From contig DLDU01000009.1 in assembly GCA_002481295.1 (NCBI GenBank), forward strand, positions 7,548-26,538: a stretch of DNA of 18,991 bases, given 5' to 3'. The notes below the pieces were generated by a model that saw only the letters and a program-made list of their open reading frames with translations, did not search any database and was not told the origin of the DNA. This stretch comes from Prevotella sp. UBA7764. GTDB lineage: Bacteria; Bacteroidota; Bacteroidia; Bacteroidales; Bacteroidaceae. Shown piece after piece: positions 993 to 18,991 of this stretch. The position numbers and the translations under genes are program-made. How positions within the stretch are numbered: position 1 is the stretch's first letter; each line of letters starts with the position of its first letter.

Positions 993-1000
993 ACCATATT

Positions 1001-2818
1001 ATGGATATCTCAGTACAACATAAAACTATATACATGACCATGTACTCTTTGCTTTTAGCTATACCGCTGTTGTGCGCAGCTTGCGGCAGCGAGAGCGATA
1101 CTCCCGCAGCTCCATCGACCATCAGTCCGACGCAGCCACAGACAACGCTCATCTCCAACCTCAACTTGCAATTGTCCACCGACAAGGCCTGTTATGCTCC
1201 CGGTGAAGCAGTGTCCTTCACATCCGGCAGCCCGTTGCCGGACGGTGCCAAGGTGCGCTACCGCCATGGTGCCACTGTCATTGAGGAACAGTCAGCCACC
1301 GGTACCAGTTGGTCATGGACGCCACCCTCCACAGACTACACGGGCTACCTCGCTGATGTATACACTACCGATGCCAGTGGCAAGCAGACTATCTACGGCA
1401 CCATCGCTGTAGATGTGTCTTCCGACTGGGCACGCTATCCGCGCTATGGCTTCGTGGGCACCTACGACGATACCAAAACCTCTGAAACCATCAGCCAGGA
1501 AACAGCATTGCTCAACCGTTGCCACATCAACGGTCTGCAGTTCTATGACTGGCAGAATAAACACCACGAACCCGTAGTGCTCCGCGACGGCAAGGTAGAG
1601 GACAGCTATGCCGACATTGCCAATCGCAAGATCAACACCAGTGTCGTCAAAGCGTATATCAGCCAAGCTCATGCCCACGGCATGAAGGCCATGTTCTATG
1701 ATCTGTGCTATGGCGCGCTAGACGATGCGGCTCAAGATGGTGTCAGTTCCAAATGGTACATGTATAAGGATGAGAACCACAGCACTGTCGAAGCGCTCGG
1801 CCTGCCATCAGGATGGAAAAGCGACATCAAGCTCGTTAATCCCGGCAACACAGCCTGGCAAGACTATTTCTCCCAGAAGGTCAGCGACGTTTATAAAACA
1901 TTTGACTTCGACGGCTTCCATATCGACCAGGTAGGAAAACGTGATCCGGAATACGACTATTATGGTAGTAAGATCAATGTCACTCAGGGATTTGCCTCGT
2001 TTATTGCCAAGATGAAAAAATCCAATCCTGAGAAGAGACTGGTGATGAATGCTGTGAGCAACTATGGTGCCCAGCAGATGGCTGCCACGGGTGACATAGA
2101 CTTCCTTTACAGTGAATTATGGGCGAACGAGGATCAGTTTGCCGACCTGTTCTCCATCATGCGCAGCAACCAAAGCAAAGCCAACACGGATCCGGCCGCT
2201 CCGGCAATGGCGCAGGTTTTCGCTGCCTATATGAACTATAATAAGGAGTCTGGAACCTTCAACACGCCGGGGGTGCTGCTCACAGACGCTGTGATGTTTG
2301 CCATCGGTGCCAGTCATCTGGAGCTGGGCGACCACATGCTCCATAAAGAGTATTTCCCCAATGACGACCTGAAAATGGACAACGATTTGAAGAAGGCCAT
2401 CGTGCACTACTACGATTTCTTCACGGCATACGAGAATCTGCTGAGAGACCGGGGGACAGACCTCTCCATTCCAGTAGAAACAAATAGCAGCGAGATGACC
2501 ATCAACGCGTGGCCGCCCAAATTGCAGACGGTAACCACAGTATGCCGGGAGGTAAACGGGAAGAAGGTCATCAGCCTGCTCAACTTCTCCCAAGCCAATT
2601 CTCTGAGTTGGCGCGACATGGATGGTACACAGCCTGAGCCAAAACATCTGTCCGACATTCCTTTGACGGTGAAGGCCAAAGGGGTGAAGAAGGTATGGGT
2701 GGCCTCCCCCGACTCTTTCGGCGGTGCTGTCCAGGAGTTGCAGTTTCAGCAACAGGGTGACTATGTGACCTTCACCCTGCCCTCACTGAAATACTGGACC
2801 ATGGTGGTGATAGAGTGA
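1001..2818 (+). CDS. GH66 endo-dextranase, lipoprotein
   Basis: This 605-residue protein matches glycoside hydrolase family 66 (endo-dextranases and cycloisomaltooligosaccharide glucanotransferases), which cleave alpha-1,6-glucan with retention. The N-terminus has a hydrophobic stretch ending at Cys28 (L-L-C-A-A-C), a plausible lipobox, followed by an acidic Ser/Glu/Asp tail consistent with surface display. An Ig-like N-terminal domain (about 50-135) precedes the catalytic barrel (about 140-500) and a C-terminal beta-sandwich. The GH66 signature 'FDGFHIDQ' places the nucleophile at Asp309, and 'YSELWAN' places the acid/base at Glu372; both are present. The ATG at 1001 is 8 nt after the previous stop. 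In-frame ATGs at 1034 and 1040 are possible alternatives and keep the signal. No CITase-type insertion is obvious, so dextranase is preferred. Confidence 0.92.
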   Translation: MDISVQHKTIYMTMYSLLLAIPLLCAACGSESDTPAAPSTISPTQPQTTLISNLNLQLSTDKACYAPGEAVSFTSGSPLPDGAKVRYRHGATVIEEQSATGTSWSWTPPSTDYTGYLADVYTTDASGKQTIYGTIAVDVSSDWARYPRYGFVGTYDDTKTSETISQETALLNRCHINGLQFYDWQNKHHEPVVLRDGKVEDSYADIANRKINTSVVKAYISQAHAHGMKAMFYDLCYGALDDAAQDGVSSKWYMYKDENHSTVEALGLPSGWKSDIKLVNPGNTAWQDYFSQKVSDVYKTFDFDGFHIDQVGKRDPEYDYYGSKINVTQGFASFIAKMKKSNPEKRLVMNAVSNYGAQQMAATGDIDFLYSELWANEDQFADLFSIMRSNQSKANTDPAAPAMAQVFAAYMNYNKESGTFNTPGVLLTDAVMFAIGASHLELGDHMLHKEYFPNDDLKMDNDLKKAIVHYYDFFTAYENLLRDRGTDLSIPVETNSSEMTINAWPPKLQTVTTVCREVNGKKVISLLNFSQANSLSWRDMDGTQPEPKHLSDIPLTVKAKGVKKVWVASPDSFGGAVQELQFQQQGDYVTFTLPSLKYWTMVVIE

Positions 2819-2824
2819 ACAGCT

Positions 2825-2855
2825 TCTCCTCCTGGCCTCTCTGGCAAGGAGGAGA
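2825..2855 (+). other. Intergenic hairpin between GH66 and GH97 genes
   Basis: A perfect 9-bp inverted repeat, TCTCCTCCT (2825-2833) with AGGAGGAGA (2847-2855), encloses a 3-bp inner stem GCC/GGC (2835-2837 with 2843-2845) closed by a TCTCT loop. No T-run follows, so it does not look like an intrinsic terminator. It may be a processing or mRNA-stability element inside the operon. Confidence 0.5.
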
Positions 2856-2865
2856 GGAATCATAA

Positions 2866-5043
<2,178 letters not shown>

Positions 5044-5132
5044 CACAATCGGTAACGACATTGCACATGGATGAGAGTTCATTTCCTTTCGCAAAGTGTA
5101 ACTTCCTTCTCCTTGTGCTTTGAAGATAGTCT

Positions 5133-5172
5133 AACCTCTGTGTCCGTGAGGATGCAGAGGTTCTTGTTTTTT
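5133..5172 (+). terminator. Rho-independent terminator after the GH97 gene
   Basis: A perfect 8-bp inverted repeat, AACCTCTG (5133-5140) with CAGAGGTT (5155-5162), encloses a further TCC/GGA pairing (5143-5145 with 5150-5152) and is followed by a T-rich tail (CTTGTTTTTTG). It lies 90 nt after the GH97 stop codon and is the best terminator candidate in the window, marking the end of the glucan-utilization unit. Confidence 0.8.
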
Positions 5173-5249
5173 GCTACTTATAGGTTAATAAACACTAAAT
5201 ATGTCTTCTGTTTTTGGCTACTTCTTTTTTTCTTCCGTCTTTTGCACCC

Positions 5250-6668
5250 ATGATCATCATCCTTTCCATACTCGTGTATTTCCTTTGCCTGCTCGCCCTG
5301 TCGTGGCTGACCAGTCGCAAGGCCGACAACCGTGACTTCTTCAGCGCGCGTCACAGTTCGCCGTGGCCGATGGTTGCCTTCGGCATGATCGGGGCCAGCA
5401 TCTCGGGCGTGACGTTTGTCTCCGTGCCCGGCATGGTGCTCAGCGTGCAGATGACCTATCTGCAGATGTGCATGGGATATATCCTGGGATACTTTGCCGT
5501 GGCCTTTGTGCTCATGCCGGTGTATTACAAGCGCAGGCTGACGAGCATCTACTCCTATCTGCAGTGCCGGCTGGGCGAGCGCAGCTATCTCAGTGGCACC
5601 CTCTTCTTTCTCATCGGCAAGATGACGGGGTCGGCGGTGAAGTTCTATGTCGTCTGCATGATTCTCCAGCGCTTTGTCCTCGATGCCTGTCATGTGCCGT
5701 TTGCCCTCACCGTGTCGACACTCGTTCTGCTCATCTGGCTCTACACCCGTCGCGGCGGCATCCGCACGCTCGTCTGGACCGACTCGGTCCAGACGCTGTG
5801 CATCCTCGCCACGCTGGTGCTCATCATCCTCAGCGTGACGCATACCCTGGGACTGACACTGCCCGAGGCCGTCAGCGCCGTGGCGCACGACTCCCGCTCG
5901 CGCATCTTTGTCTTCGACGACTGGCGGTCGACACAGAACTTCTGGAAACAGTTCCTCTCCGGCGTGTTCATCGTGGTGGTGATGACGGGGCTCGATCAGG
6001 ACATGATGCAGAAAAACCTCACCTGCCGCACGTTGCGCGAGGCGCAGAAAGACCTGTGCTCCTATGGCTTCGCCTTCCTGCCGACCAACCTGCTGCTGCT
6101 CGCGCTTGGCGTCTTGCTGGCACTGCTCTCGCAGAAACTGGGCATGGCCCTGCCAACCGACACCGACGAGCTGGTGCTCAACTTCACGGCAGGCGGGCGG
6201 TTGGGGCCGCTGGTCACCGTGCTGTTCTCCATCGGCATTGTGGCCGCCTGCTTTTCCTCGGCCGACTCGGCCCTCACGGCTCTGACCACGAGCGTGTGCC
6301 TCGACCTGTTTCGCCGCCCCAACGCCGAGCGGTTGCGAAAGACCACACATGCCGTGATCGCCGTGATCTTTGTGGTGTTTATCCTGATCTTTGCCCGTTT
6401 CAACTCCACCAGTCTCCTGCAGGCCGTGCTGATGCTGGTGGGATATACCTATGGCCCGCTGCTCGGCCTCTTCGCCTACGGGCTGCTCACCCGCCGCGCC
6501 GTGCGCGACAAGTGGGTGCCCGTCATCTGTCTGGCCTCCCCTTTGCTCTGTCTTGCCGCTGATCTGTATGCCCGTCAGCACCTCAACTACCAGTTTGGCT
6601 ACGAGCTGCTCATGCTCAACGGAGCCCTCACCTTCGGTGGACTGTGGTTGTCAGGACTACGTCGATAA
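5250..6668 (+). CDS. Sodium:solute symporter family (SSS) transporter
   Basis: This 472-residue, highly hydrophobic protein has the pattern of the SSS/SLC5 family, inner-membrane carriers that couple Na+ entry to uptake of sugars, sialic acid, amino acids or vitamins. The N-terminal helix is followed by 'RKADNRDFFSARHSSPWPM', then 'GASISGVTFVSVPG', both typical of SSS proteins. 'ACFSSADSALTALTTS' (about 334-348) matches the TM8 signature whose Ser/Thr residues bind Na+ in vSGLT. Thirteen or so membrane segments are expected. The start at ATG 5250 opens directly into TM1; a TTG at 5214 would add an unlikely tail. It lies downstream of a terminator, so it probably has its own promoter; a weak TAnnTTTG-like box (TGTTTTTG, 5209-5216) lacks a clear partner. 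The base composition is more G+C-rich than in neighbouring genes. Substrate is unknown; a sugar is a guess from context. Confidence 0.9.
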   Translation: MIIILSILVYFLCLLALSWLTSRKADNRDFFSARHSSPWPMVAFGMIGASISGVTFVSVPGMVLSVQMTYLQMCMGYILGYFAVAFVLMPVYYKRRLTSIYSYLQCRLGERSYLSGTLFFLIGKMTGSAVKFYVVCMILQRFVLDACHVPFALTVSTLVLLIWLYTRRGGIRTLVWTDSVQTLCILATLVLIILSVTHTLGLTLPEAVSAVAHDSRSRIFVFDDWRSTQNFWKQFLSGVFIVVVMTGLDQDMMQKNLTCRTLREAQKDLCSYGFAFLPTNLLLLALGVLLALLSQKLGMALPTDTDELVLNFTAGGRLGPLVTVLFSIGIVAACFSSADSALTALTTSVCLDLFRRPNAERLRKTTHAVIAVIFVVFILIFARFNSTSLLQAVLMLVGYTYGPLLGLFAYGLLTRRAVRDKWVPVICLASPLLCLAADLYARQHLNYQFGYELLMLNGALTFGGLWLSGLRR

Positions 6669-6955: not shown

Positions 6956-6977
6956 GACGTGGATTGGAACCACGGTC
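6956..6977 (+). other. Hairpin just upstream of the first lipoprotein start codons
   Basis: GTGG (6959-6962) pairs with CCAC (6970-6973). The outer GAC (6956-6958) pairs with GTC (6975-6977) across a single bulged G, and the loop is 7 nt. It ends 10 nt before ATG 6988 and could affect translation start. On the minus strand the inner part resembles a tRNA T-arm, but no complete tRNA can be built around it. Confidence 0.35.
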
Positions 6978-7008
6978 AGTAGTTCTAATGAATAAATGTT
7001 TTGTAACG

Positions 7009-9468
7009 ATGGATATTAATAAGATTTCTAATTTCGCCATCTCGTCACTGATCGTGATGGGTATGACAGCCTGCTCCAGCGACGACCCCAGCAATGGAGG
7101 AACGCAGATCAACTCACAGGCAGACCAAATCAGTGTGCTGCTGAACAGCACCGATAACCGAGTAACTAACTACGGTAACACTACCGGAGCCAAGGCGTTC
7201 ACACGCGCATTGTCTGCTAATGCACCGACCCTTGACCTTAAACTGCCAGAGAAACCTACTGGCAACGAATGGGCGCCGCTGAACAGTGGTGACACAAAGC
7301 TCGCTGACAACGCTATCGTCACCATCAGCATGCCTTCCCTGTCTCTTGACATGAACGGAAAGCAACTGCTGTTGCAGAAAGACCTGACGCTCACCGGACT
7401 GACAGGCGGTGGTACAATCTATGTGCCGGGCGGCAAAACGCTGACACTCAAGGGCGTGAGCAGTACCGCCACAAACATCATCGTCTATGGCGGCGGTAAG
7501 CTCGTGGTGACGGGCGTCTCTACTTTCACCGTAGAAAAGGATGCCAGCCTCATGGCCAAGAACTCTTTCTATAAGTCGGGCGACGGCAACAAAGAAGAAG
7601 CTGCGAAAGACCAGACCTTCCTTGGCATCGACCTGATCAACAACGGTAAGATCCTCACCGGAACAGAATTCCACGCTAAGAACATTACGCTCGGCGCTGG
7701 CTCGCAGACGCAGATCGGTACCAACCTCACCGCCGGCGTCGACTTTGTAGCCGACGGAGCAGTATCCGCTGAGATCATCACCGCGCAGAACGCTACGGTG
7801 AAAGGCACCCTTGTTGCCAGCAAGCTCTTCTCGCTCGCCAACAGCCTCACCGTGAATGGTGCCGATGCTAAAGTCTATGGCAACTATATCAAGGCCGGTC
7901 AGTATGACGACTCCAAGACCAAAGCCGAGACCTTCATCCGTCAGACCAATGGCTCAAATATCTATGTTGGCAACAACGGACTGATCAACACCTACACCTA
8001 TTATAATACAGACGGCAAAGAATCCAAGATCAACCTCACCGACGGCACACTGGCTGTCCTGGAGACCAAGCAGATCGTGACCGACGGAGACAATGCTTCC
8101 TTCCTCACAGCCCCCAGCGGCAGCACCTTCGGCGTTTATTTCAAGCGCGCCTATAAAGGCAGCGTGGCTGACAACACCCTCCTCGACTGGGATGACTTCG
8201 CCTTCGACGGCAGCGCAAACGTGCGCAAGCTGAACAAGGAAAACGACTTCGCCGACATCACTATCCCCGCTGACGAGAGCATCAAGTGCCTCGGCTTCAA
8301 CCCCAACAAGGAAGGTACTAAGACAGCCACCGACTATCAGCTTCTCCGTCCGACGGCTGAGGTGAAATATGGCATCAACGATGCTGAGCGCAATGGCCGC
8401 TCCGCCACGGGCGTGGTCGTCGACGGCAACAACGTTTATGTCTGCTACCACACCAACGGCACCACACAGGCCGGTATGCTCGACTACTTCACCACGACAA
8501 GCGACGGACACGTGACGCTCCAGCAGTCGATCTCGGCCGTAGACGCTTCAAAGAAGAATGCTGTCGACTGGAACAACATCGTGCTCGACAAGGAGCAGCA
8601 CAAGCTCATCGGCACCGGTAACGGACAGAAGGGCGGACTGATCACATCACTGTCACTGACAAATGCCGGCGCCTTCGACACAAACGCCTCCTCCACTGCC
8701 GGCAGCACACTGGAGCCGTTGAAGGCAACAGTCCTGCAAAAGGTTACGGCGGCTACGGAAGGTAAGACGACGGGCGACGGCAACGCTGTCATCGTCAACG
8801 GCGACTATTACCAAGTAGCTACCCTCTACGGCACAGAGACTTTCAACCGCAGCGATCTCAGCGGCGCCTATGCTTCAAAACTCGGCGACGCCAAGTACAT
8901 CACGAAAGACAACAAGAATGTATATGTCAGCTATGTCGATGGCGACCACCTCAAGGTCAACAGCTACGATGCAAACAACGTACGCCTGGACAACGGCTCT
9001 ACACTCTTCGACGCCGGTAGATTCGAGACCTTCATCGGCACCAAAGGCAAGAGCGTGATGGCTGTTGACGGCAACGACATCTATGTCTGCCTTGGCAAGG
9101 GCGGTCTGGCTAAATACACCAACGGCAGTCTGAGTGGACTCTTCATCCCGAAGGACGCTACCTATACCGCTGATGCAGATAACAAGAAGTACAGTGAGGG
9201 CGACGTCGTGACCCGCGGCTACTGCAATGGCGTCTGCGTCAAGGGCGACAAGATCTACATTGCCTACGGCTCGCTGGGTCTCATCGTCCTCAACAAGAGC
9301 GACATGAAGGCTACGACAGCCGACGCTGCCAAGCAAACACCTGAGGTGGCCCGCTACACCGCCGGCAAGTCTGCTAACTTCGTGGCTGTGGATGACAACA
9401 ACAACATCTACGTGGCCTACGGACGGAACTGCCTGAAGGTGCTCAGACTGGTGGACAAATCTCGCTAA
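7009..9468 (+). CDS. Surface lipoprotein, solenoid-like N-terminus and propeller-like C-terminus (paralogue 1)
   Basis: No named family is recognised. The protein has 819 residues from ATG 7009; ATG 6988 is an alternative that adds seven residues. A signal peptide ends in the lipobox G-M-T-A-Cys22, and the next residues S-S-D-D resemble the surface-export signal of Bacteroidota lipoproteins. Residues of about 60-400 are rich in short Gly/Asn/Val/Thr strands ('GGGTIYVPGGKTLTLKG', 'IIVYGGGKLVVTG'), as in beta-helix proteins. From about 455 to the end, repeats such as 'NNVYVCYH', 'NDIYVCLGKGGLAKY', 'IYIAYGSLGLIVLN' and 'IYVAYGRNCLKV' suggest a beta-propeller. The next gene encodes a clear paralogue with the same layout. 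The position at the head of a polysaccharide synthesis/export operon suggests a role outside the cell in holding or organising the polymer; this is inference. Confidence 0.85.
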   Translation: MDINKISNFAISSLIVMGMTACSSDDPSNGGTQINSQADQISVLLNSTDNRVTNYGNTTGAKAFTRALSANAPTLDLKLPEKPTGNEWAPLNSGDTKLADNAIVTISMPSLSLDMNGKQLLLQKDLTLTGLTGGGTIYVPGGKTLTLKGVSSTATNIIVYGGGKLVVTGVSTFTVEKDASLMAKNSFYKSGDGNKEEAAKDQTFLGIDLINNGKILTGTEFHAKNITLGAGSQTQIGTNLTAGVDFVADGAVSAEIITAQNATVKGTLVASKLFSLANSLTVNGADAKVYGNYIKAGQYDDSKTKAETFIRQTNGSNIYVGNNGLINTYTYYNTDGKESKINLTDGTLAVLETKQIVTDGDNASFLTAPSGSTFGVYFKRAYKGSVADNTLLDWDDFAFDGSANVRKLNKENDFADITIPADESIKCLGFNPNKEGTKTATDYQLLRPTAEVKYGINDAERNGRSATGVVVDGNNVYVCYHTNGTTQAGMLDYFTTTSDGHVTLQQSISAVDASKKNAVDWNNIVLDKEQHKLIGTGNGQKGGLITSLSLTNAGAFDTNASSTAGSTLEPLKATVLQKVTAATEGKTTGDGNAVIVNGDYYQVATLYGTETFNRSDLSGAYASKLGDAKYITKDNKNVYVSYVDGDHLKVNSYDANNVRLDNGSTLFDAGRFETFIGTKGKSVMAVDGNDIYVCLGKGGLAKYTNGSLSGLFIPKDATYTADADNKKYSEGDVVTRGYCNGVCVKGDKIYIAYGSLGLIVLNKSDMKATTADAAKQTPEVARYTAGKSANFVAVDDNNNIYVAYGRNCLKVLRLVDKSR

Positions 9469-9582: not shown

Positions 9583-12042
9583 ATGAATAAGAAGATCTTT
9601 TATCTATTCTCTGCCGCACTCCTCATAGGAGGGTTGACAGGGTGCTCGTCAAGCGACGACGTTGGCAGTGAGGCTAATCAGGTCAACCCCACTCGCATCG
9701 GCGAGGCGCTCGACGATATTACCAGTCAGATGCAGTCGTCTATCTTTAACTGCAACCAGGCTAAATCAAGGACACGCGCCGCAAGCGATATCGAAGCACA
9801 GATTCCCAAAGGGAATGAAGTAAGCTTCAACAATGCAGTGCCAAGCAATGCCGTGGATATCACAGAGGGTAATCCTGCTACCTGGAATGCTGGCGGCACA
9901 TGGCGGGTGCCTAAAGGAAAGAATAAAAGCGACCTTCAATTAAACATGCAGGACGCGACACTCTATGTAGAAGGCACTGCTACTTTGACCAAAGCTTGGG
10001 GCAGCAATGGCAAGATCATCGTCAAGAACGGAGGACATCTTATCATCAAGACGAGCGACAATCGCTTCAATGGTAATGGTGGAACGGCCATTATCGAGAA
10101 GGGTGGTAAGGTGACTTCTGCATCCGGAACTCTTCATATCAATGCTGATGATAAGGTGTATGTCGAGGGTGACCTGACGACCATCGATAACATTGCCATT
10201 CAGGGTAGGCTCTATGTTGGTGGTGACCTCTCGGCAAAGCAGTTCCTCAACCCCACCAATAATGCGATCATGAACAGCACCACCCACCTCTATGTCGCAG
10301 GCAAGCTGACCTCCACGGATGCTGATTTATGGACTGACGGCTACATCCGCGTGGGCGGGGACATTGACGCCGGAAACCATGCCATCTACTTCCAAAACAC
10401 TACTCATCTGATTGCAGACTGTGGTATTAAGGCAAATTTGGTGGAGGTGAACTCCAACAAGGCTGAGATCCACGTCAACTATATCAAGTGCGCCAACTTC
10501 AACCAGTGGGCCACTTCAAAAGTATATCTGAACGACAAAGGCCTCATTGACATTGACAACACCTATACCAACAAGAACAATGGCAACGATGCCGCCATCA
10601 TCATGGAAGGCGACGGGGCCATGGGCGTGGTAAAGGCCGCTAAGATTTGTTTCAACGGCAGTGGCTCACCCGAGACACTCAATGACTGTTACTTCATTCA
10701 GACTTCCGGCTCACAGAAGGCAGGCGTGGACTGCAACACCTTTAACTTCGCTACCGGGGGGGACGTAGACTTCACGAAGGTCAACTTCGTCAAAGGTACA
10801 GTGGAGCACATCTCCAAAGGTAAGGTCTTAGATGCCAGTGGTAATAAAGTAAGTGATGAAGTAAAATACTCCATCCCCGCCGACGGTTGTCACGGCAACG
10901 GATACGTCCCCAGCAAGCCCGACACACCGGACACACCGGATACACCAGATACTCCGGAGAACCCGCAGCCGGTGGTCGTCTCCGAGAGCCACACCCACGA
11001 CATCTCTGCTACCTGTGTGCAGACCGACGGCACCAACGTCTATGTGTCTTACCACAAGAGAGGCAATGAACAGAGTGGATGCCTGGAGATGCTCAGCACC
11101 ACAGGCGATGTGACAACGCTCAAGCAGTTCGTACGCGATCATGACAATGCCATCGACTTCAACCACATCACCCTCGATAAGTCCGACAAACGGCTCTATG
11201 CGGTCGGCAACAACAAGAATGGAGGCTTCCTGGGCTATGTGCGCCTTACTGACGATGGCAAGATCGACTGCACATCGCAGGATATGAAAGGCCTCGATAG
11301 CACCGAGATCGCCCGCAAGACCTACGAGCCGCTGCAGCTCGTCAAGCTCTATCAGGCTCAAAGAAGCGCTAACACCACGCATTCCAAGGACGGTGGCGAC
11401 GGCAACTGCGTGATCGTCAACGGCGACAACCTGCAAGTGGCTTCCACCTACGGCTATGAAATCTTTGACAAAGACCTCAACCCTGTGGGCTACAAGCAGA
11501 CTGCAGGACGCGCTAAGCACCTCTGCTTCTCGCCTGACGGCAACAACGTCTTTGCTATCCACTACGACGGTACCCAGATCGAGAATGAAAACACTGAGGT
11601 AGGCTTGGTGCTGGAGAAGTTCAACAAGAGCGATGCCACGATGCAGTCACCCGTCTTCAGTAAAGATGCCAACAAGGTGAAGCCCAACAACGGCAAGAAC
11701 GCCATGTGTGTCTACGACGGCAAGGTCTATGTCTGCCAGAGCATGAACGGACTCTACGTCTATGATGCCAACACCGGTACACAGGTCGGCCATTACAAGG
11801 AGGATATCTGGTCCGACGACCTCCAGAAGGATCTTGCCATCTGCGCCAATGGCGTGGCAGTCGATGCCAAATACGTATATATCGCTTATGGCAGCCGCGG
11901 ACTCGTCGTCTTGGACCGCAACACGTTGAAGAAGGTTTCAAGCTTTGTCAGCATGCGATCCGCCAACTACGTGACGCTCGCCAACGGCTATATCTATGTG
12001 GCATACGGACGCAACTGCCTCAAAGTGTTCAAGCTCATGTAA
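9583..12042 (+). CDS. Surface lipoprotein, solenoid-like N-terminus and propeller-like C-terminus (paralogue 2)
   Basis: This 819-residue protein is a paralogue of the preceding gene product. The signal peptide (M-N-K-K start) ends in G-L-T-G-Cys21, followed by S-S-S-D-D, consistent with export to the cell surface. Both proteins then have a short polar stretch ending in T-R-A. Residues of about 90-440 contain repeated beta-strand units with Gly/Asn turns ('GKIIVKNGGHLIIKT', 'VYVEGDLTTIDNIAIQGR'), like a right-handed solenoid. A Pro-Asp-Thr linker (446-457) separates this from a C-terminal half with propeller-like repeats ('TNVYVSYHKRGNEQSG', 'VYIAYGSRGLVVLDRN'), ending in 'IYVAYGRNCLKVFKLM'. 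That ending is nearly the same as in paralogue 1. The linker is missing from paralogue 1. Function is unknown; a surface role linked to the exported polymer is inferred from the operon. Confidence 0.87.
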   Translation: MNKKIFYLFSAALLIGGLTGCSSSDDVGSEANQVNPTRIGEALDDITSQMQSSIFNCNQAKSRTRAASDIEAQIPKGNEVSFNNAVPSNAVDITEGNPATWNAGGTWRVPKGKNKSDLQLNMQDATLYVEGTATLTKAWGSNGKIIVKNGGHLIIKTSDNRFNGNGGTAIIEKGGKVTSASGTLHINADDKVYVEGDLTTIDNIAIQGRLYVGGDLSAKQFLNPTNNAIMNSTTHLYVAGKLTSTDADLWTDGYIRVGGDIDAGNHAIYFQNTTHLIADCGIKANLVEVNSNKAEIHVNYIKCANFNQWATSKVYLNDKGLIDIDNTYTNKNNGNDAAIIMEGDGAMGVVKAAKICFNGSGSPETLNDCYFIQTSGSQKAGVDCNTFNFATGGDVDFTKVNFVKGTVEHISKGKVLDASGNKVSDEVKYSIPADGCHGNGYVPSKPDTPDTPDTPDTPENPQPVVVSESHTHDISATCVQTDGTNVYVSYHKRGNEQSGCLEMLSTTGDVTTLKQFVRDHDNAIDFNHITLDKSDKRLYAVGNNKNGGFLGYVRLTDDGKIDCTSQDMKGLDSTEIARKTYEPLQLVKLYQAQRSANTTHSKDGGDGNCVIVNGDNLQVASTYGYEIFDKDLNPVGYKQTAGRAKHLCFSPDGNNVFAIHYDGTQIENENTEVGLVLEKFNKSDATMQSPVFSKDANKVKPNNGKNAMCVYDGKVYVCQSMNGLYVYDANTGTQVGHYKEDIWSDDLQKDLAICANGVAVDAKYVYIAYGSRGLVVLDRNTLKKVSSFVSMRSANYVTLANGYIYVAYGRNCLKVFKLM
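10918..10953 (+). repeat. Four tandem 9-bp units encoding a Pro-Asp-Thr linker
   Basis: Four in-frame 9-nt units (CCN GAY ACN) encode P-D-T four times between the solenoid-like and propeller-like halves of the second lipoprotein. Units differ only at wobble bases, which suggests slippage followed by drift. The unit number may vary between strains. Confidence 0.8.
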
Positions 12043-12121: not shown

Positions 12122-13519
12122 ATGCACCACTTTTCTCATCGATTGTCCCTGGTGATAATCCTGGCTTTACTGACGGCTTTGGCCCATGCACAAAACGACA
12201 TGGAATATGGCTACCGCCCGAAGATGCTGGTTTATGAGAATCTCAAGAACGACAGCGTACTGCGCGACTTCCATCGTCGTTTTCGCGTCATGGAGCGTGT
12301 CGTCTTCTTTCCCGTTGACTATGTCATGCCCCAGGCTCCTGTCTTCGGCTTTCCTGCTGGCGATGCCGTCAGCGACAGCCTTTACCAGCTCAAGGCCGGG
12401 TTGGACATGCTGGCTCTGGACCGCAACACAGGATTGGAAGTCACCGGACAGGTCTACGGCCGCCTCAGCAAGAAGCTGACAAGCTTCCTCTCCACCGACG
12501 ACGACGACCCCGTCTCTGTCTACAAGGCCAAGGTGCAGGCCGAAGTAGGATGGAACTGGATCAACAGCAAATTCTATCACGGATACTACAAGGAGCGTGA
12601 CATCAAGCTCAGTACCGACATTGCCAAAGCACGCCAGCGCCTGGATGACGGCCGTGCCGACATGGACGCTTGGGCCGACAGCCTGGAACAGCACTGGAAT
12701 CACGTCATCGCCGGTGTCATGCTCTGCCACGTTCGCAACCTCGACGTACTCAACGAGGCCTACCAGATGATGCTCGAGCAGGACCGCATCACCAGCGGAC
12801 AGCTCCTCGACGTGATGAACGAAAAGATGCAACTCGAGTTTCAGCTTGCCCAGTTCTATGCCAAGGACTCCATCGCCCCGCGTGAGGAGCTGGTATGGCT
12901 CAAGCCGGAAGCCATTGCCATCGACACGGTGAGCCTGCGCCAGCAGGTGTCCGCCAACAACCCACAAAACCTGCTCAACAAGCTGAAGATAGCGCAACTC
13001 GACAACAGCGCCAAGTTGCTATCCTATATCGCTACAATGCGACTGACCCCCTTCGCCCGCTGGTCGACCTATCTCACCAGTCAGGACAAGATCTCAAACA
13101 ATGTCGACTTCGGTGTGCGCTTCACCTTTCCGCTGTGGAACGCCACCAAACATCAGAAAGCTTCCATCGAGGTGCAGAAGGAAATCCTCCGCGACGAAAA
13201 CACCACATACACTGACAACGTCATGACCCACTGCCGGATGAACATCGACGCCGTCCGCCGCCTCAACCAGGCCATCGCCGTGGAGTACCGCCACCTTACC
13301 CAATTGAAGAAATATCTCGCCATGCGACAGAATACCTACGCCAAGAACCAAGGCCGATACAGCTATATCGACCGACTCTTAGAGTACAACCAATACCTCA
13401 AAAGCATGGAACGCCTCTATACGCAGATGAAAGAGCGATCGCTGAGCCTCATACAGATCCAGCGACTGGCCAACGTGCCCAATGTCCACAGTTTCGTAAC
13501 GACGACACCCATACTATGA
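12122..13519 (+). CDS. TolC-like outer-membrane efflux protein
   Basis: This 465-residue protein starts with a signal peptide ending A-H-A before Gln-Asn. It is otherwise rich in long amphipathic helices with periodic Gln, Leu and Arg (about 160-260 and 345-455). Two helical regions separated by strand-rich stretches, such as 'NNVDFGVRFTFPLWN' (about 325-340), match the duplicated layout of outer-membrane factors of the TolC family. The 'F-x-F-P-L-W-N' segment is typical of the second beta-hairpin in these proteins. TolC trimers form an outer-membrane barrel with a periplasmic tunnel that docks to a membrane-fusion protein. The next gene, overlapping by 4 nt, encodes just such a partner. The sequence is diverged from drug-efflux members, and its cargo here is probably a polysaccharide. 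Confidence 0.8.
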   Translation: MHHFSHRLSLVIILALLTALAHAQNDMEYGYRPKMLVYENLKNDSVLRDFHRRFRVMERVVFFPVDYVMPQAPVFGFPAGDAVSDSLYQLKAGLDMLALDRNTGLEVTGQVYGRLSKKLTSFLSTDDDDPVSVYKAKVQAEVGWNWINSKFYHGYYKERDIKLSTDIAKARQRLDDGRADMDAWADSLEQHWNHVIAGVMLCHVRNLDVLNEAYQMMLEQDRITSGQLLDVMNEKMQLEFQLAQFYAKDSIAPREELVWLKPEAIAIDTVSLRQQVSANNPQNLLNKLKIAQLDNSAKLLSYIATMRLTPFARWSTYLTSQDKISNNVDFGVRFTFPLWNATKHQKASIEVQKEILRDENTTYTDNVMTHCRMNIDAVRRLNQAIAVEYRHLTQLKKYLAMRQNTYAKNQGRYSYIDRLLEYNQYLKSMERLYTQMKERSLSLIQIQRLANVPNVHSFVTTTPIL

Positions 13520-14661
13520 AAGAATTTAAGTTTGAACAGCACACCGAGGAGCAAGACGCCCTCTTCCTGCTGAAACAGCAGAAGAAGAAACTCGCCAAGC
13601 AGCAAGTCATCTTTGCCGCTGCCTTCATCGTGGCGCTCATCTTTCTCATCTTCTATGCCGTCAGCCGCTCGGTCTACACCTACTACGATGGATATATCAG
13701 TCTCGACAAAAACACCATACGCGCAGCGCAAGACATCTACATTCTGAAAATGAAGGCCAACGTCGGCGACTCCGTGCAAAAAGGCGACACTCTCTTCTCC
13801 TATGTCATCATCAACCACATCGGAGAACTCAACAACATCGGCAACGAACCGGTCTATGTGCAACGCGCCAACGACATGAAGACGCAGGCCATGCTCGCCC
13901 GCCAGGAGATCCCCGTGCTCCGTGAGCAGCTCCGCCAGCTGCAGCTGCAACTGCACTCCGAGCGCAACGACATCTTCTACGGTCTGACCAACAACACCAA
14001 GCAAAACGACCTCAAGGCACAAATCGCCGAGACACAGGCAAAAATCCGCGAGGCTGAGAACAAAGTGCGCATCTATCTCATGAACGAGGGGCAGGGACGC
14101 CTCAAACTCATCCGCGCCGGCCTTTACAGCCGCTCTGTCAACGCCATGCCCTACTCGCCCTATGGCAACGAATACACCGAGGGGGTCCTCAACTACGCCT
14201 GCGCACCCGAAGACGGCTTCATCACGGACATCCACTTCACCAACTATTCCATCGCCATCAAAGGCGACGAGGTGCTGAATCTGAAATTTCGCGATATCGA
14301 CAAGTCCCACCTACACGTGATGACCTACGTGCCTGTTGACAAGGCACGCTCACTGTTGCGCGCCGACTCCATCGAGGTCATCGTCGACGACCGCACCCGT
14401 TTCAATGCCCACCTCGTGCGTCTGGGACTGGGCGTGCAGCAACTTCCGGATTATCTGATGAACAACTTCTCACGCGACGCCATGGTCATCATGGCCACCC
14501 TCAACATCAACAAAGGGCAGGAGATACCCTTCTGGGTCCTCAACAACGACTTGCCCGTGAAGATCCGTGTCGGTAAATTCTTCCTGCACAAAAAACTTAA
14601 AGACGCCGAGCAACGTTACCTGATCAAGCCTACCCCTCCCACGGTAAAAGGCGGGCAATAG
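13516..14661 (+). CDS. HlyD-like membrane-fusion (periplasmic adaptor) protein
   Basis: The 381-residue product has a charged N-terminal tail, one membrane segment (about 30-50), then a first lipoyl-like half (58-97, with 'ANVGDSVQKGDTLFSY'). A coiled-coil hairpin follows (about 115-195, with 'LREQLRQLQLQL' and 'AQIAETQAKIREAENK'), then a second lipoyl half (about 227-256, 'APEDGFITDIHF ... KGDEVLNL') and a beta-rich C-terminal domain. This is the domain order of HlyD/EmrA-type adaptors, which link an inner-membrane machine to a TolC-type channel. Its ATG lies inside the stop of the TolC-like gene (ATGA), pointing to translational coupling and fixed stoichiometry. No transporter ATPase is encoded nearby, and the inner-membrane partner is likely the GT2 enzyme. 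That would make it comparable to the adaptor part of Alg44, but without PilZ. Confidence 0.85.
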   Translation: MKEFKFEQHTEEQDALFLLKQQKKKLAKQQVIFAAAFIVALIFLIFYAVSRSVYTYYDGYISLDKNTIRAAQDIYILKMKANVGDSVQKGDTLFSYVIINHIGELNNIGNEPVYVQRANDMKTQAMLARQEIPVLREQLRQLQLQLHSERNDIFYGLTNNTKQNDLKAQIAETQAKIREAENKVRIYLMNEGQGRLKLIRAGLYSRSVNAMPYSPYGNEYTEGVLNYACAPEDGFITDIHFTNYSIAIKGDEVLNLKFRDIDKSHLHVMTYVPVDKARSLLRADSIEVIVDDRTRFNAHLVRLGLGVQQLPDYLMNNFSRDAMVIMATLNINKGQEIPFWVLNNDLPVKIRVGKFFLHKKLKDAEQRYLIKPTPPTVKGGQ

Positions 14662-14752
14662 AAACTAATGAGTAGCGCCGGCAGCGCGAGCCGCAGCCTC
14701 AACCCATCTTAGCCGCGCAGACTAATAAACAGACACATTACAAGAAGGTCAA

Positions 14753-16426
14753 ATGATAAATATCGTAACTAACAAACACGGCTACCGCATCCTGGTATGT
14801 GACGAGCCTGTATGGGTGGAGTTCCACACCCAATACAAGGCCGACGACTTCGATGGCGTGTTTATCAACATTCCATTTGCCAATGATGTGGAGCTCATCC
14901 TCAAGGGCCTCAACCCGATCACCTGCAACAAAGCAGCCTACAAGCCGTTCTTTGCTGCCAGGACACTGAAAGACAAGATCGGCATCTACGACGAGATGTT
15001 CGATGCCTATATCGACAGTGTCGACGAGGAACTCGTGCTCAAAACCTTCAAAGAGTTGGAAAACTACCGCAAAGAATATGACGTGCCCCAAGAGACCGGT
15101 GCCATCACCAACCATGGTCTGCTGATCCTGCGCATCTTCCGCTATTACATTTCCCGCAATAAACTGATCCTGGAGCCCAAGGTCATGGAAAAAAGCGCCA
15201 TGGGCTGCGCCCTCCCGCTGGCAGAATGCCTACACAGCTGGAGCCTCTTCCATATCAATGAGTATTTCTCCTGGATCGACATGGGCTTAGCACACGGCAC
15301 GCTGGCTTACCGCAAGACCGTCTACCGCATGCATGTCTGCCCAAAGTGCCAGCACTCCCACCTGATCTATCAGGAGCAGTGCCCCAACTGTGGCAGCAAC
15401 GAACTTGACTACGAGCCGGTGATCCACCACTTCCCCTGTGCCAACATTTCTCCGGAGCATACCTACATCGTCGGCGGACAGCTCATCTGCCCCAAGTGCC
15501 ACAAGCCTCTGCGACATATCGGCATCGACTACGACCGCCCCACCTCGCTCTATCTCTGCCACAACTGCCATCAAAGCTTCCTCACGCCCGACACCACCGC
15601 CCGCTGCACCTACTGCGGCACTGTGTCGAACGTCAACGACCTCTTCCCCCGCAGCATCCATGTCGTGGAGATCACACCGAGAGGCATCAACGATATCTGC
15701 CATAGTGTCCACTCGTTCTCACCCTACAACGACTATTTCAACAACTACATGCCCATGGAGGCATTTGAGAACCGACTCCAGTTGATCGCCACCCGTTCCC
15801 TTGCCCACGACGGCGTGATCCGCGGACTGATGATCGCGCTCCTTTGGGCCACAGACGAAAACGGCGGCGTGATGACCCGTACGGAGAAGGTAGTGGAGGC
15901 CGTCTCACGACTCTTTGTCAACAACAAGGTGACGGCAACCAATTTCTGCATATACGTCCAAAGCACCATCCTCGAAGACGAGGGCGAGCATGCCAAGGAG
16001 CAGTTCCGGAAAAAAGTCAGCGACAACGCTGCCTACATAGCCATGTTTCTCCAACCCTACTCCCAGCTGCACATCGCCTTCAAGACCATCGGCAACAACG
16101 TAGAGGAAGACCGCCTCTTCGCCAAGGAATGGTCGCTCATACCCAGCACCAGCGACATCACCATCCGCTATGAAGAAGTGACGCACCCCAAGGACATGAG
16201 CACGATGATGTTTATCAGCCACAAGCTCAATGCCGCCTTTGAAGACGGACAGACCGAGGAAGCACGCCGCCTCGCCGACCAAGAGCGTATGCGCCAGGAA
16301 ATCGACGAGCTCCAGGACCGACCGCCTATTTCCGAGCTCCTCTCATACCTGAAGTGGGGATATATCGTTTTGGCCATTGTGGCCATCATCGCCATTATCG
16401 CCGGATACTGGTTCTGGCTGAGATAA
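14753..16426 (+). CDS. TackOD1-like zinc-binding protein with C-terminal membrane anchor
   Basis: This 557-residue protein has four visible parts. Residues 1-190 show no family that I recognise. Residues 196-289 hold five CxxC pairs (196/199, 210/213, 246/249, 269/272, 285/288) plus Cys229, enough for two or more zinc ribbons. The segments 'IHHFPCANISPEH' and 'CPKCHKPLRHIGIDYDRP' match what I recall of the TackOD1 domain (thaumarchaeal output domain 1), proposed as a signalling output module. Residues of about 335-470 form an alpha/beta region that could be a degenerate nucleotide-cyclase-like fold; this is tentative. Residues 535-555 form one membrane helix at the extreme C-terminus, so the bulk would be cytoplasmic if tail-anchored. 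A possible weak Shine-Dalgarno AAGAAGG lies before ATG 14753. Its place between the adaptor and synthase genes suggests control of polymer synthesis, possibly replacing PilZ. Confidence 0.75.
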   Translation: MINIVTNKHGYRILVCDEPVWVEFHTQYKADDFDGVFINIPFANDVELILKGLNPITCNKAAYKPFFAARTLKDKIGIYDEMFDAYIDSVDEELVLKTFKELENYRKEYDVPQETGAITNHGLLILRIFRYYISRNKLILEPKVMEKSAMGCALPLAECLHSWSLFHINEYFSWIDMGLAHGTLAYRKTVYRMHVCPKCQHSHLIYQEQCPNCGSNELDYEPVIHHFPCANISPEHTYIVGGQLICPKCHKPLRHIGIDYDRPTSLYLCHNCHQSFLTPDTTARCTYCGTVSNVNDLFPRSIHVVEITPRGINDICHSVHSFSPYNDYFNNYMPMEAFENRLQLIATRSLAHDGVIRGLMIALLWATDENGGVMTRTEKVVEAVSRLFVNNKVTATNFCIYVQSTILEDEGEHAKEQFRKKVSDNAAYIAMFLQPYSQLHIAFKTIGNNVEEDRLFAKEWSLIPSTSDITIRYEEVTHPKDMSTMMFISHKLNAAFEDGQTEEARRLADQERMRQEIDELQDRPPISELLSYLKWGYIVLAIVAIIAIIAGYWFWLR

Positions 16427-16436
16427 AAACAATGCT

Positions 16437-17756
16437 ATGCTTGACACGATACTATACTACATCAGCAGCTTCATCGACTTCCTGCGTGGACTCAATGTGA
16501 GCAATGTGGTGAGAACCTACTGGTTTCTCTTCTTCGTGGAGTTTCCGCGATACTACATCCTGGAGTACGGTGTACTCTTTTACCGCTTTCTCACACGTAA
16601 TCGCCGCCATCGTCGACGTGCGCTGGCGCGGTGGCTTCTCCACCACGACCGCCCGCTGGTGACGATACTCGTGCCAGGCAAGAACGAGGGAAAAAATATC
16701 TATAAGCTGGTCACCACACTGCGTGAGCAAACCTATCAAAACTTCGAGATCATCATCGTCGACGACGGCTCCGACGACGACACGCCACTCATCTGCCACG
16801 ATCTGGAGCGCGCGAAATACATCACCAAATACCTGCGTTGCAACGTGCGCGGCGGTAAAGCCTCTGCCGCCAACTTCGGCGCACGCATCGCCACAGGAAA
16901 ATATATCGTTCACCTCGACGCCGACTCCTCGCTGGACCGCAATGCCATAGAGAACGTGCTCATCCCCTTCTACATGGACAAACGTGTGAAAGCCGTCGGC
17001 GGATGCGTACTCGTGCGCAACTACAAGGAAAACATCTGCACCTCGCTGCAAGGCTATGAGTATCTCAAACGCATACAGGTGGGCCGACTGGTGACGAGTC
17101 AGCTCGGCATCTACCATATCATCTCCGGTGCCTTCGGCGCTTTCGACGCTGAAACACTCAAGGAAATCGGTTACTGGGACATTGGACCGGGCCTCGACGG
17201 CGACATCACGCAAAAGGTGCGCAAGGCCGGACTCCGCGTGGCCTTCGCGCACAATGCCGTCTGCCTGACCAACGTGCCTACACAATGGTACAAGCTCTAT
17301 CATCAGCGCATACGCTGGAGCCGCTCGCTGGTAAGGTTCCGACTCAAGAAGCACCTCGACATTCTGCTGCCCAACCGCAACTGGAACTTCCTGAACTTCC
17401 TGAGCAACATGGAGAGCATCTTCTACGATTGCATCCTGAACTTCATCTGGTGGTTCTATATCATCAACCTGATCTTCACCTTCCACGCCTCGTTTCTGCA
17501 AATCTTCGCCATGGGATATATCCTGCGCATCGCGCTGAACTATATCGGCTGGGGATTGGTGAGAATCATCAGCGAGCGGCCGGGCGCCACCTACTGGTAT
17601 CTGCGCTACTTACCCCTCATGCCCGCCTACTCGGGATGGTTCATGCGATTTGCCCGCACCACGGCGCAGCTGAGCGAGCTCTTCTTCTTCCAGTCCTATA
17701 AAGACAACTGGAATCCCTATAAGACCTCACGGTCTGCACAATTGGAAAAAATCTAA
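16437..17756 (+). CDS. Processive family 2 glycosyltransferase (polysaccharide synthase)
   Basis: The 439-residue membrane enzyme carries the GT2 processive-synthase motifs: 'VDDGSDDD' (Asp109, Asp110), the metal-binding 'DADS' (Asp161, Asp163), an acidic 'LDGD' with Asp256 at the place of the catalytic base of TED, and 'QRIRW' (290-294), the QxxRW acceptor-channel motif. A membrane segment lies near 25-48 and about three more follow the catalytic domain (330-415). This layout resembles NodC, HasA, PgaC and Alg8, which polymerise a UDP- or GDP-sugar and pass the chain through the inner membrane. The ATG is 10 nt after the TackOD1-like gene. The downstream dehydrogenase suggests that the substrate is a UDP-amino-uronic acid or that such a sugar is one of two alternating units. 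The Glu-to-Gly change in the TED motif is unusual. The polymer is not known. Confidence 0.9.
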   Translation: MLDTILYYISSFIDFLRGLNVSNVVRTYWFLFFVEFPRYYILEYGVLFYRFLTRNRRHRRRALARWLLHHDRPLVTILVPGKNEGKNIYKLVTTLREQTYQNFEIIIVDDGSDDDTPLICHDLERAKYITKYLRCNVRGGKASAANFGARIATGKYIVHLDADSSLDRNAIENVLIPFYMDKRVKAVGGCVLVRNYKENICTSLQGYEYLKRIQVGRLVTSQLGIYHIISGAFGAFDAETLKEIGYWDIGPGLDGDITQKVRKAGLRVAFAHNAVCLTNVPTQWYKLYHQRIRWSRSLVRFRLKKHLDILLPNRNWNFLNFLSNMESIFYDCILNFIWWFYIINLIFTFHASFLQIFAMGYILRIALNYIGWGLVRIISERPGATYWYLRYLPLMPAYSGWFMRFARTTAQLSELFFFQSYKDNWNPYKTSRSAQLEKI

Positions 17757-17765
17757 CTCATAAAT

Positions 17766-18991
17766 ATGAAGAAAACAGATATTGCATTGATCGGCTTAGG
17801 TTATGTTGGACTGCCTTTGGCTCTGGCCTTCGCAAAACGCTACCACGTTGTAGGATTCGACGTTGACGGTAAAAAATGCAACAACCTCAAAAAGGGACTT
17901 GTCAGCCGTGACCAGTGTGATGCCACAAAGCTTCGCAATGCCTTAGACCATGGTAACTTCCACATTACTAACGAACTAAACGACACCAAGGCATGTAACT
18001 ACTACATCATCGCTGTACCCACACCCGTATCCAAAGACTATCACGCCGACCATACACTGCTGAAAAAGGCCTGCGAAATGGTGGGACAGGTCATCGACAA
18101 AGACGACACTGTCGTCATCGAGTCTACCGTATGGCCGGGAATGACGGAAGAGATCTGTGTGCCCATCCTGGAAAAAGTCTCCGGACTGAAACTCAACACC
18201 GACTTCTTCGTCGGTTATTCACCCGAGCGTATCAACCCTGGTGACAGCCAGCACCCCGTGGAGCGCATCAGAAAGATTGTCTCCGGATCCACTCCTGATA
18301 CGGCGGCCGCTTTAGAGAAACTCTATGGTTCCATCCTGCTCAACGGCACTTACAAGGCTCCCTGCATCCGCGTGGCTGAGGCCAGTAAGGTCATGGAAAA
18401 CTGCCAGCGTGACGTGCTCATCGCCTTTGCCAACGAGATGCACACGATTTTCTCGGCCTTGGGCATCAACACGGAGGATGTCATCGCTGCCGCCTCTACT
18501 AAATGGAACTTCGTGCCTTTGCACCCGGGACTTGTTGGCGGACACTGTATCCCCGTGGATCCCTACTACCTTATTGATAAGGCCGCCACAGCGGATGTCG
18601 ACGCACGACTACTGAAGACGGCAAGAGCTATCAACAACGAAATGGCAATCAGCTATGCCCGACGCATAGCCGCCAGACTCAAAAAGACTGGCGGATCGAG
18701 TGTGCTGCTCCTCGGATTTGCCTTTAAGCCCAACTGCGATGATATTCGTAATACACGTGTCGCGGATGTGTATCATGAACTGGCGAAGACCGTCAGCGAT
18801 ATTACCGTGTGTGATCCGCTCATTGATGTGGAAAAGGCCAAGGCGGAGTATGGTATTAATGTTGTACACAGTGTGCCGCGCAACCGGGACTACGACGTGA
18901 TCGCGATCACCACCGCGCATGATATCTTTGCCCGCGACGCCTTCCTCAACATCGAGCACAAGCCTGTCATGCTCTTATGCGACAAGCCGAC
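17766..18991 (+). CDS. UDP-HexNAc 6-dehydrogenase, TviB/WbpO type (3' end outside window)
   Basis: The frame runs from ATG 17766 to the window end without a stop, giving about 408 residues of a protein usually near 420. The Rossmann motif 'GLGYVGLPLA' (10-19) binds NAD+. 'EASKVMEN' supplies Lys208 and Asn212, and 'GLVGGHCIPVDPYY' holds the catalytic Cys261, the complete set of the UDP-glucose/GDP-mannose dehydrogenase superfamily. The C-terminal part has 'LLGFAFKPNCDDIRNTR', the UDP-binding domain signature. The phrases 'VPTPV', 'ESTVWPG' and 'GYSPERINPGD' resemble TviB (Vi antigen) and WbpO more than UDP-glucose dehydrogenase, so oxidation of UDP-GlcNAc or UDP-GalNAc to the uronic acid is the best guess. 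It lies 9 nt after the GT2 gene and would provide its precursor. UDP-ManNAc dehydrogenase (WecC-like) is a less likely alternative. Confidence 0.9.
   Translation, partial: MKKTDIALIGLGYVGLPLALAFAKRYHVVGFDVDGKKCNNLKKGLVSRDQCDATKLRNALDHGNFHITNELNDTKACNYYIIAVPTPVSKDYHADHTLLKKACEMVGQVIDKDDTVVIESTVWPGMTEEICVPILEKVSGLKLNTDFFVGYSPERINPGDSQHPVERIRKIVSGSTPDTAAALEKLYGSILLNGTYKAPCIRVAEASKVMENCQRDVLIAFANEMHTIFSALGINTEDVIAAASTKWNFVPLHPGLVGGHCIPVDPYYLIDKAATADVDARLLKTARAINNEMAISYARRIAARLKKTGGSSVLLLGFAFKPNCDDIRNTRVADVYHELAKTVSDITVCDPLIDVEKAKAEYGINVVHSVPRNRDYDVIAITTAHDIFARDAFLNIEHKPVMLLCDKP

Follow-up and report, generated by a model that had tools for sequence, protein, structure and literature searches.

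A TackOD1-GT2-HlyD-TolC gene cassette of Bacteroidota as a candidate synthase-dependent polysaccharide secretion system

In its textbook form, synthase-dependent polysaccharide export relies on a synthase, a tetratricopeptide-repeat (TPR) protein and an outer membrane barrel of 16 to 18 strands (2022 paper, PMC9601211). Other arrangements have been described. In alginate production the family 2 glycosyltransferase (GT2) Alg8 works with Alg44, a partner that has a periplasmic membrane-fusion domain and brings PilZ-based control by cyclic di-GMP (c-di-GMP) (PMC8461298); in the BgsA/BgsB system for the mixed-linkage beta-glucan of rhizobia, an HlyD-like partner is thought to form the exit (PMC9495663, PMC7997180); and for cyanobacterial cellulose a GT2-HlyD-TolC route has been proposed, unvalidated and with genes scattered in the model organism (PMC12430437). 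The cytoplasmic regulators PelD and BcsE of polysaccharide machines have a degenerate GGDEF fold, and both bind c-di-GMP (PMC8461298). Here we compare with these systems a cassette of genes for a GT2, an HlyD-type adaptor, a TolC-fold channel and a TackOD1 protein, found in an 18,991-nucleotide stretch of contig DLDU01000009.1 of Prevotella sp. UBA7764 (the window).

The list of open reading frames places five genes on the + strand at 12122-18991, in the order channel, HlyD adaptor, TackOD1, GT2 and dehydrogenase, which bears out the tight run of GT2, dehydrogenase, HlyD and TolC-like channel genes seen in an initial annotation of this DNA. The channel and HlyD genes overlap by 4 bases and the gap from HlyD to TackOD1 is 91 bases. 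We favor the possibility, to which we assign a probability of about 0.7, that these genes encode a synthase-dependent polysaccharide secretion machine with an HlyD/TolC exit, in which TackOD1 is a cytoplasmic subunit or switch. The cassette is real, conserved and functionally suggestive; the mechanism, including export through a TolC-type channel, is our inference.

The evidence for a conserved unit comes from three samples of Bacteroidota genomes. A TackOD1-first search of 395 genomes gave 12 above the Pfam cut-off, including the source genome of the window (seven with sub-cut-off TackOD1 only were left out), and the other 11 genomes yielded 12 loci, all 12 of which have channel, HlyD, TackOD1 and GT2 genes. 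A GT2-first search of 395 genomes of the class gave 24 with E<=1e-60, among them the source genome and one already in the first sample. Twenty of the remaining 22 were fetched (G525 and G644 were left out); TackOD1 adjoins GT2 in 20/20 loci, counting one in which a predicted frame of 82 aa intervenes, and three loci without channel and/or HlyD each lie at a contig edge. Finally, a TackOD1-first search of 399 genomes of the family gave 43 matches including the source genome; 20 of the 42 others were fetched and 22 left out, and GT2 stands beside TackOD1 in 14/20 loci. The other six, all from a single genus (g353, L121-L126), have TackOD1 without other cassette genes; five of these six orphan genes are beside a receiver gene, and they lie near suf and histidyl-tRNA synthetase genes. 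Nine g353 genomes were tested and had no GT2 of the cassette kind, and two others hold a full cassette (L120, L128).

Including the window and Hallella mizrahii (L012), TackOD1 and GT2 adjoin in 48/54 loci and all four core genes occur together in 44/54, four loci being cut at contig edges and six having TackOD1 alone. Genes omitted by the gene caller were recounted by six-frame search (GT2 in L044 and L134, GT2 and channel in L137, HlyD in L135), and the GT2 of L130, split over two frames, was counted in the same way. As two of the samples are conditioned on TackOD1 and one on GT2, the adjacency is seen from both sides. TackOD1, which the initial annotation had offered only as a search term for a gene-neighbourhood survey, is in this survey a constant part of the cassette, and the expectation of a synthase, HlyD and TolC-fold unit with no other inner membrane transporter held up. 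Most intergenic gaps in the cassettes span at most 30 bases. Across 40 loci, the four proteins have correlated pairwise identities (0.86-0.94), a range that shared descent alone could yield. Synthase, HlyD adaptor, TolC-fold channel and TackOD1 form one conserved operon-like unit. Its distribution is sporadic; TackOD1 was absent from all 39 nearest relatives searched. One genome (G242) has two cassettes (L033 and L034) about 11 kb apart on one contig, with a dehydrogenase in only one. A contig titled uncultured Clostridiales RUG626 (L013) encodes a TackOD1 that is 98% identical to that of the window over 161 residues; it is probably a mis-binned Bacteroidota contig.

The initial annotation had placed the architecture in Bacteroidota, but the synthase-HlyD-TackOD1 core is also present in Pseudomonadota. 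Searching 72,556 plasmid records with TackOD1 by tblastn gave 15 bacterial records and, with a second query, five archaeal ones. A GT2 and an HlyD-type gene follow TackOD1 in 15/15 bacterial records, although in the second Methylocystis record (L166) the third gene was assigned by position only. The hosts are Plesiomonas, Aeromonas (two), Photobacterium (two places), Phyllobacterium (three), Aminobacter (two), Methylocystis (two), Rhodobacteraceae M382, Alisedimentitalea, Palleronia and Roseibium. A TolC gene is present in four of the 15, directly adjoining in the two Aeromonas records (TackOD1-GT2-TolC-HlyD) and after one further gene in the two Methylocystis records; the other 11, one of them unannotated, have no adjoining TolC gene. 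The cassette occurs in many Bacteroidota and, often reduced, in some Pseudomonadota. In the reverse search the window GT2 matched 539 plasmid records; the first thirteen rows were all TackOD1-linked, and the fourteenth, a GT2 and HlyD pair of Sinorhizobium medicae, has no TackOD1 within 5 kb. Among the archaeal records a GT2 is near TackOD1 in one of five (Halorussus), and no HlyD gene is annotated there. Phage records had no TackOD1. Two plasmid loci may be singled out: in Aeromonas caviae the complete four-gene set lies on a 29-kb mobilizable plasmid in two strains (L159 3422-9244), and on a haloarchaeal plasmid (L154 8950-11911) TackOD1, a DUF2334 protein and a GT2 stand in a row, archaea having no such outer membrane.

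The window GT2 matches PF00535 (2.8e-28) and carries the features of an inner membrane processive synthase, namely D,D,D,QxxRW motifs and membrane segments. The motifs DDG, DAD, DGD and QxxRW are kept at >=97% in 44 aligned sequences, and averaged hydrophobicity gives segments at 24-49, 328-374 and 388-406 with a weak one at 218-236. About 33 of the 439 residues follow the last predicted segment, with no further Pfam domain; the Pfam scan gave no PilZ domain. The nearest NCBIfam model is PgaC/IcaA (TIGR03937) at 150 bits, under its curated cut-off of 422.3, and a poly-N-acetylglucosamine (PNAG) system proper was rejected on this basis. In one family (L077-L079) a second, shorter GT2-like gene (316-388 aa) adjoins the channel gene.

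The dehydrogenase, which is cut by the contig end, scores 374 bits against TIGR03026 (cut-off 189.8) and 396 bits against the TviB UDP-GlcNAc 6-dehydrogenase model NF011729 (cut-off 592). A Vi system proper was rejected for the latter shortfall. The initial annotation had named the enzyme a UDP-HexNAc 6-dehydrogenase; this is likely but no firmer, because TviB is the nearest family model and yet its cut-off is not reached. The description of the polymer as acidic likewise fits some lineages only, as a dehydrogenase gene adjoins just 15/48 cassettes. A natural fusion of nucleotide-sugar dehydrogenase and TackOD1 in a single 743-aa protein (P0080) was also found. Elsewhere in the source genome (G000:C25:2582-2803) a 173-aa frame has 70% identity to dehydrogenase residues 334-407, with the remainder of the protein absent.

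The window channel has no Pfam or NCBIfam match, and its assignment rests on structure prediction and on its relatives. Its AlphaFold2 model (pLDDT 83.6) gave 41 Foldseek matches at E<=0.001, all 41 of them TolC/OprM/CusC-type channels; with TM-scores to the model of 0.34-0.55 and an rmsd of 8-28 A, the model supports the fold class, not the detail. The protein has a hydrophobic N-terminal stretch resembling a signal peptide by hydropathy, and matches the cassette outer membrane factor (OMF) profile with an E of 4e-101, this profile having been built with the window channel included. The HlyD protein falls just under the PF13437 cut-off (4.6e-4, 21.3 bits versus 22.2), belongs to the cassette HlyD profile and has one N-terminal transmembrane stretch by hydropathy (residues 31-49); a sequence search of solved structures gave it no relative, the best match being a SusD homologue at E 0.5.

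Many relatives carry a further clue. Channels of more than 640 aa (23/43 OMF matches) bear a C-terminal domain with invariant His, Glu and Asp in 21 sequences, two near-duplicates of the 23 being left out. This domain matches GH18 at E<=1 in 5/21 scanned (best 1.7e-6), and an Aeromonas channel matches part of it (E 2.5e-9). Among solved structures its best match is labelled GH97 (E 8.6e-4), complement-inhibitor chains rank next, probably by chance, and chitinases appear only at E 0.25-1.5; the same search from a single sequence gave nothing. The C-terminus of TolC is periplasmic, so a GH18-like domain there would occupy the place of AlgL or BcsZ, which are periplasmic in other synthase-dependent systems. 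Since so many relatives fuse the channel to it, a polysaccharide is the likely cargo of the cassette. The substrates of GH18 enzymes are mostly N-acetylglucosamine polymers, which would suit a synthase resembling that of PNAG and a dehydrogenase resembling TviB, but the window channel itself lacks the domain. One channel (L069, 4780-7440) has an additional N-terminal YCF48-like domain (PF14870) ahead of the TolC part.

TackOD1 is, like the GT2 and the dehydrogenase, a clear Pfam match, at 3.9e-44 and 150.9 bits against PF18551 (cut-off 32). An alignment of 52 sequences has 24 invariant columns, of which 11 are Cys, and hydropathy places a C-terminal transmembrane tail anchor at residues 538-556. 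In the predicted structure residues 325-471 match the GGDEF fold, with PelD and BcsE among the structural matches; the GG[DE]EF motif is absent, as is an RxxD motif. Residues 1-118 resemble a degenerate receiver in the model, and true receiver domains are present in alphaproteobacterial TackOD1 proteins. Profile comparison of TackOD1 with receiver and GGDEF families was not significant (E 0.12 and 0.08, with control pairs at 0.12 and 0.72), and a sequence search of solved structures gave no relative (best E 0.14). No PF00990 (GGDEF) match was found in the source genome, which is 88.6% complete; among 37 further genomes with the cassette, 35 likewise gave no match, true GGDEF proteins occur in one, and the last has only a sub-threshold match inside its own TackOD1. 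In one family (L033, L035-L037) histidine kinase, receiver, Hpt and LytTR genes lie just before the cassette, and phospho-signalling may therefore control it there.

A working model can be put together from these parts. The GT2 would polymerise a UDP-sugar, which in this lineage is probably that of an N-acetylhexosamine or of the corresponding uronic acid, and would push the growing chain through the inner membrane. The HlyD protein would dock the synthase to the TolC channel so that the chain leaves by a closed tunnel, which would stand in for the TPR protein and the barrel of 16 to 18 strands found in textbook systems. TackOD1 may act on the cytoplasmic face as a scaffold or switch, a role played elsewhere by PelD, BcsE or the PilZ part of Alg44, although TackOD1 would not depend on c-di-GMP. 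An acidic sugar would be supplied by the dehydrogenase in lineages that have it, and the polymer may be held by surface lipoproteins.

The usual partners of HlyD/TolC pairs are ABC, RND or MFS pumps, and the two proteins could be parts of a standard apparatus for efflux or type I secretion whose genes happen to lie beside sugar genes, its inner membrane pump being encoded elsewhere. The source genome does have further OEP genes, and in one closed genome (G912) the cassette is followed by a MutS-like gene and, at a distance of about 2-3 kb, by the start of a TetR/OEP/HlyD/MFS efflux set. Elsewhere, what lies past the dehydrogenase in relatives is housekeeping or unrelated: receiver and radical-SAM genes, NMT1-like and EPSP synthase genes, a family-less protein, or a lipoprotein. 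We tallied Pfam families in 137 flanking proteins, leaving out near-duplicate loci, the lipoprotein cluster, frames of <100 or >760 aa and a few others. Of 187 families the 25 commonest were inspected, and no Wzx/Wzy, ABC, OPX, RND, MFS or O-antigen-ligase-type family was among them, although families with one or two members could be hidden; OEP, HlyD and TPR models had two members each and polysaccharide deacetylase four. Against an ordinary pump stand this lack of ABC, RND or MFS families among the commonest neighbours and the four genes kept together in 44/54 loci. Furthermore, (i) Pfam models that recognise components of common efflux pumps do not recognise the window channel or adaptor at their cut-offs; (ii) in Pseudomonadota it is the adaptor gene that accompanies the synthase, TolC not adjoining in 11/15 records; and (iii) many channels carry the GH18-like domain. 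For want of a recurring pump gene we rejected an efflux pump as first choice, and consider it the least likely of the alternatives weighed here. Nor did the relatives examined have a Wzx/Wzy or ABC set beyond the right edge, the presence of which the initial annotation had named as refuting its proposal; the window's own right flank is unreadable in this assembly, because the window ends with its 26538-base contig.

A little less improbable, though still doubtful, is a synthase whose product is a short or lipid-linked glycan, or which decorates a surface component, with HlyD and TolC moving a lipid or protein so modified (such as the large lipoproteins) and not the growing chain. The window has a single glycosyltransferase although two sugars could be involved, large lipoprotein-like genes occur in 19/54 loci, and the GT2 is below the cut-off of every characterised synthase model. 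Its PDB matches include non-processive transferases, but they also include chondroitin and hyaluronan synthases; the nearest model is a PNAG synthase, QxxRW with C-terminal membrane segments marks processive synthases, and the flanks offered no ligase of the O-antigen type among their commonest families. It is also conceivable, if unlikely, that TackOD1 stands outside the machine as a co-transcribed transcriptional or two-component output protein. The name TackOD1 was given to a response-regulator output domain (PMC5847659), Alphaproteobacteria have true REC-TackOD1 proteins, and receiver genes adjoin some loci as well as most orphan TackOD1 genes. On the other hand, the window protein has a membrane anchor and a GGDEF-like fold common to PelD and BcsE, no DNA-binding domain was found in it by Pfam scan, and in two phyla its gene is the immediate neighbour of the synthase gene.

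We regard it as an even bet that TackOD1-GT2-HlyD(-TolC) is a distinct secretion class, spanning at least two phyla, with a TolC-type exit and a dedicated receiver/zinc-ribbon/GGDEF-fold TackOD1 subunit, for which c-di-GMP is dispensable. Such a class would provide a first role for the TackOD1 domain, whose function was termed obscure in 2018, and might extend to archaea, given the one haloarchaeal TackOD1 gene of five near a GT2. With a TolC-type exit, polysaccharide secretion would be linked to the world of efflux pumps, and a physical question would arise: how can a polymer thread a channel made to pass small molecules and unfolded proteins? With its four genes the cassette is compact; it occurs in numerous Bacteroidota families, is also carried by a mobilizable plasmid, and offers a testable role for an orphan domain family. 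It further points to a setting in which a synthase may be under the control of a GGDEF fold although the cell has no GGDEF enzyme.

Table 1. Features of the cassette and its neighbours (window positions)
Feature	Position	Strand	Basis
TolC-fold outer-membrane channel, 465 aa	12122-13519	+	predicted fold, cassette OMF profile
HlyD-type periplasmic adaptor, 381 aa	13516-14661	+	PF13437 marginal, cassette HlyD profile, hydropathy
TackOD1 protein, 557 aa, cytoplasmic body and C-terminal transmembrane tail anchor	14753-16426	+	PF18551
TackOD1 residues 1-118, alpha/beta domain, putative degenerate receiver	14753-15106	+	secondary structure of model
TackOD1 residues 127-304, TackOD1 zinc-ribbon domain	15131-15664	+	PF18551, invariant CxxC pairs
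TackOD1 residues 325-471, GGDEF-fold domain without GGDEF motif	15725-16165	+	predicted fold match
Processive-type GT2 (putative polysaccharide synthase), 439 aa	16437-17756	+	PF00535, motifs
UDP-sugar 6-dehydrogenase (TviB-like), 408 aa, no stop	17766-18991	+	TIGR03026; ends with contig
Large secreted lipoprotein-like protein, 819 aa, probable accessory	9583-12042	+	sequence cluster common to 19/54 loci
Paralogue of the 819-aa protein, 834 aa, probable accessory	6964-9468	+	same sequence cluster

The nearer of the two lipoprotein-like genes (Table 1) ends 79 bases before the channel gene, and Hallella mizrahii likewise has two such genes upstream of its cassette. Left of these genes, at window 3-6668 (L009 497-8539), is a directly adjoining dextran-type utilisation locus, with genes for a DUF6377 protein, SusC-like, SusD, SusE and SusF/SusE-like proteins, GH66, GH97 and a sodium:solute symporter. 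As initially annotated, the scanned window and contig genes include no ABC, Wzx/Wzy or polysaccharide barrel/TPR families, nor OPX; the sole barrel among them is the SusC-type receptor, the rest of the genome not having been searched for polysaccharide-type barrels. No known RNA element reached its gathering threshold. The Bacteroidota-type promoter pattern TTTG-N18-22-TAnnTTTG had no match, sigma-70-like sites numbered 6 versus 8.5 +/- 3.1 in shuffles, and terminator-like sites 21 versus 12.6 +/- 4.2, nearly all on the opposite strand. As these scans were uninformative, the transcription unit is deduced from gene spacing alone. An anti-phage defence reading was rejected, the five cassette proteins having no PADLOC match.

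How, then, does the cassette compare with the systems outlined at the outset? It resembles drug efflux and type I secretion in the TolC/OprM/CusC channel fold and the HlyD-type adaptor, and differs from these tripartite systems in having no ABC, RND or MFS pump. Closest is the XcsA-XcsB-TolC proposal for cyanobacterial cellulose, reportedly made by Maeda and colleagues in 2018, which shares with the cassette a tripartite exit of GT2 synthase, HlyD-like adaptor and TolC-like channel. However, XcsA has a PilZ domain and the Xcs genes are scattered, whereas the window GT2 has none and the four genes form one run; TackOD1, constant here, goes unmentioned in the accessible part of the cyanobacterial account (PMC12430437). 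The BgsA/BgsB system also couples a GT2 synthase to an HlyD-like partner gene, but BgsA ends in a c-di-GMP-binding domain (139 aa) that the window GT2 lacks (BgsA was not aligned), and neither TackOD1 nor a TolC gene is mentioned in what we could access of the BgsA/BgsB accounts (PMC9495663, PMC7997180). With Alg8/Alg44 the cassette has in common a GT2 synthase, a partner with a membrane-fusion domain and cytoplasmic control, yet alginate uses a c-di-GMP-binding PilZ domain, the AlgK scaffold and the AlgE barrel. TackOD1 shares its predicted degenerate GGDEF fold with PelD and BcsE, from which it differs in its zinc ribbons and tail anchor, in lacking RxxD from its GGDEF-like part and in coming from a genome in which no GGDEF enzyme was found.

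The initial annotation had called the architecture undescribed. This is too strong for the exit, for which the cyanobacterial synthase-HlyD-TolC model exists (PMC12430437), and for the adaptor, as partners that are HlyD-like or of the membrane-fusion type have been described in the synthesis of mixed-linkage glucan (PMC9495663) and of alginate (PMC8461298). It does apply to the operon: in the literature searched, with subscription journals mostly outside its scope, we found no report of a four-part operon with a constant TackOD1 and no paper on the cassette in Bacteroidota. The GT2-HlyD-TolC exit idea is thus not new, and what the searches did not turn up is an operon of all these parts with a TackOD1 subunit. 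The cassette would work like the synthase-dependent class, yet it falls outside the strict textbook definition, since the scanned genes hold a TolC fold instead of a TPR scaffold and a 16- to 18-strand barrel.

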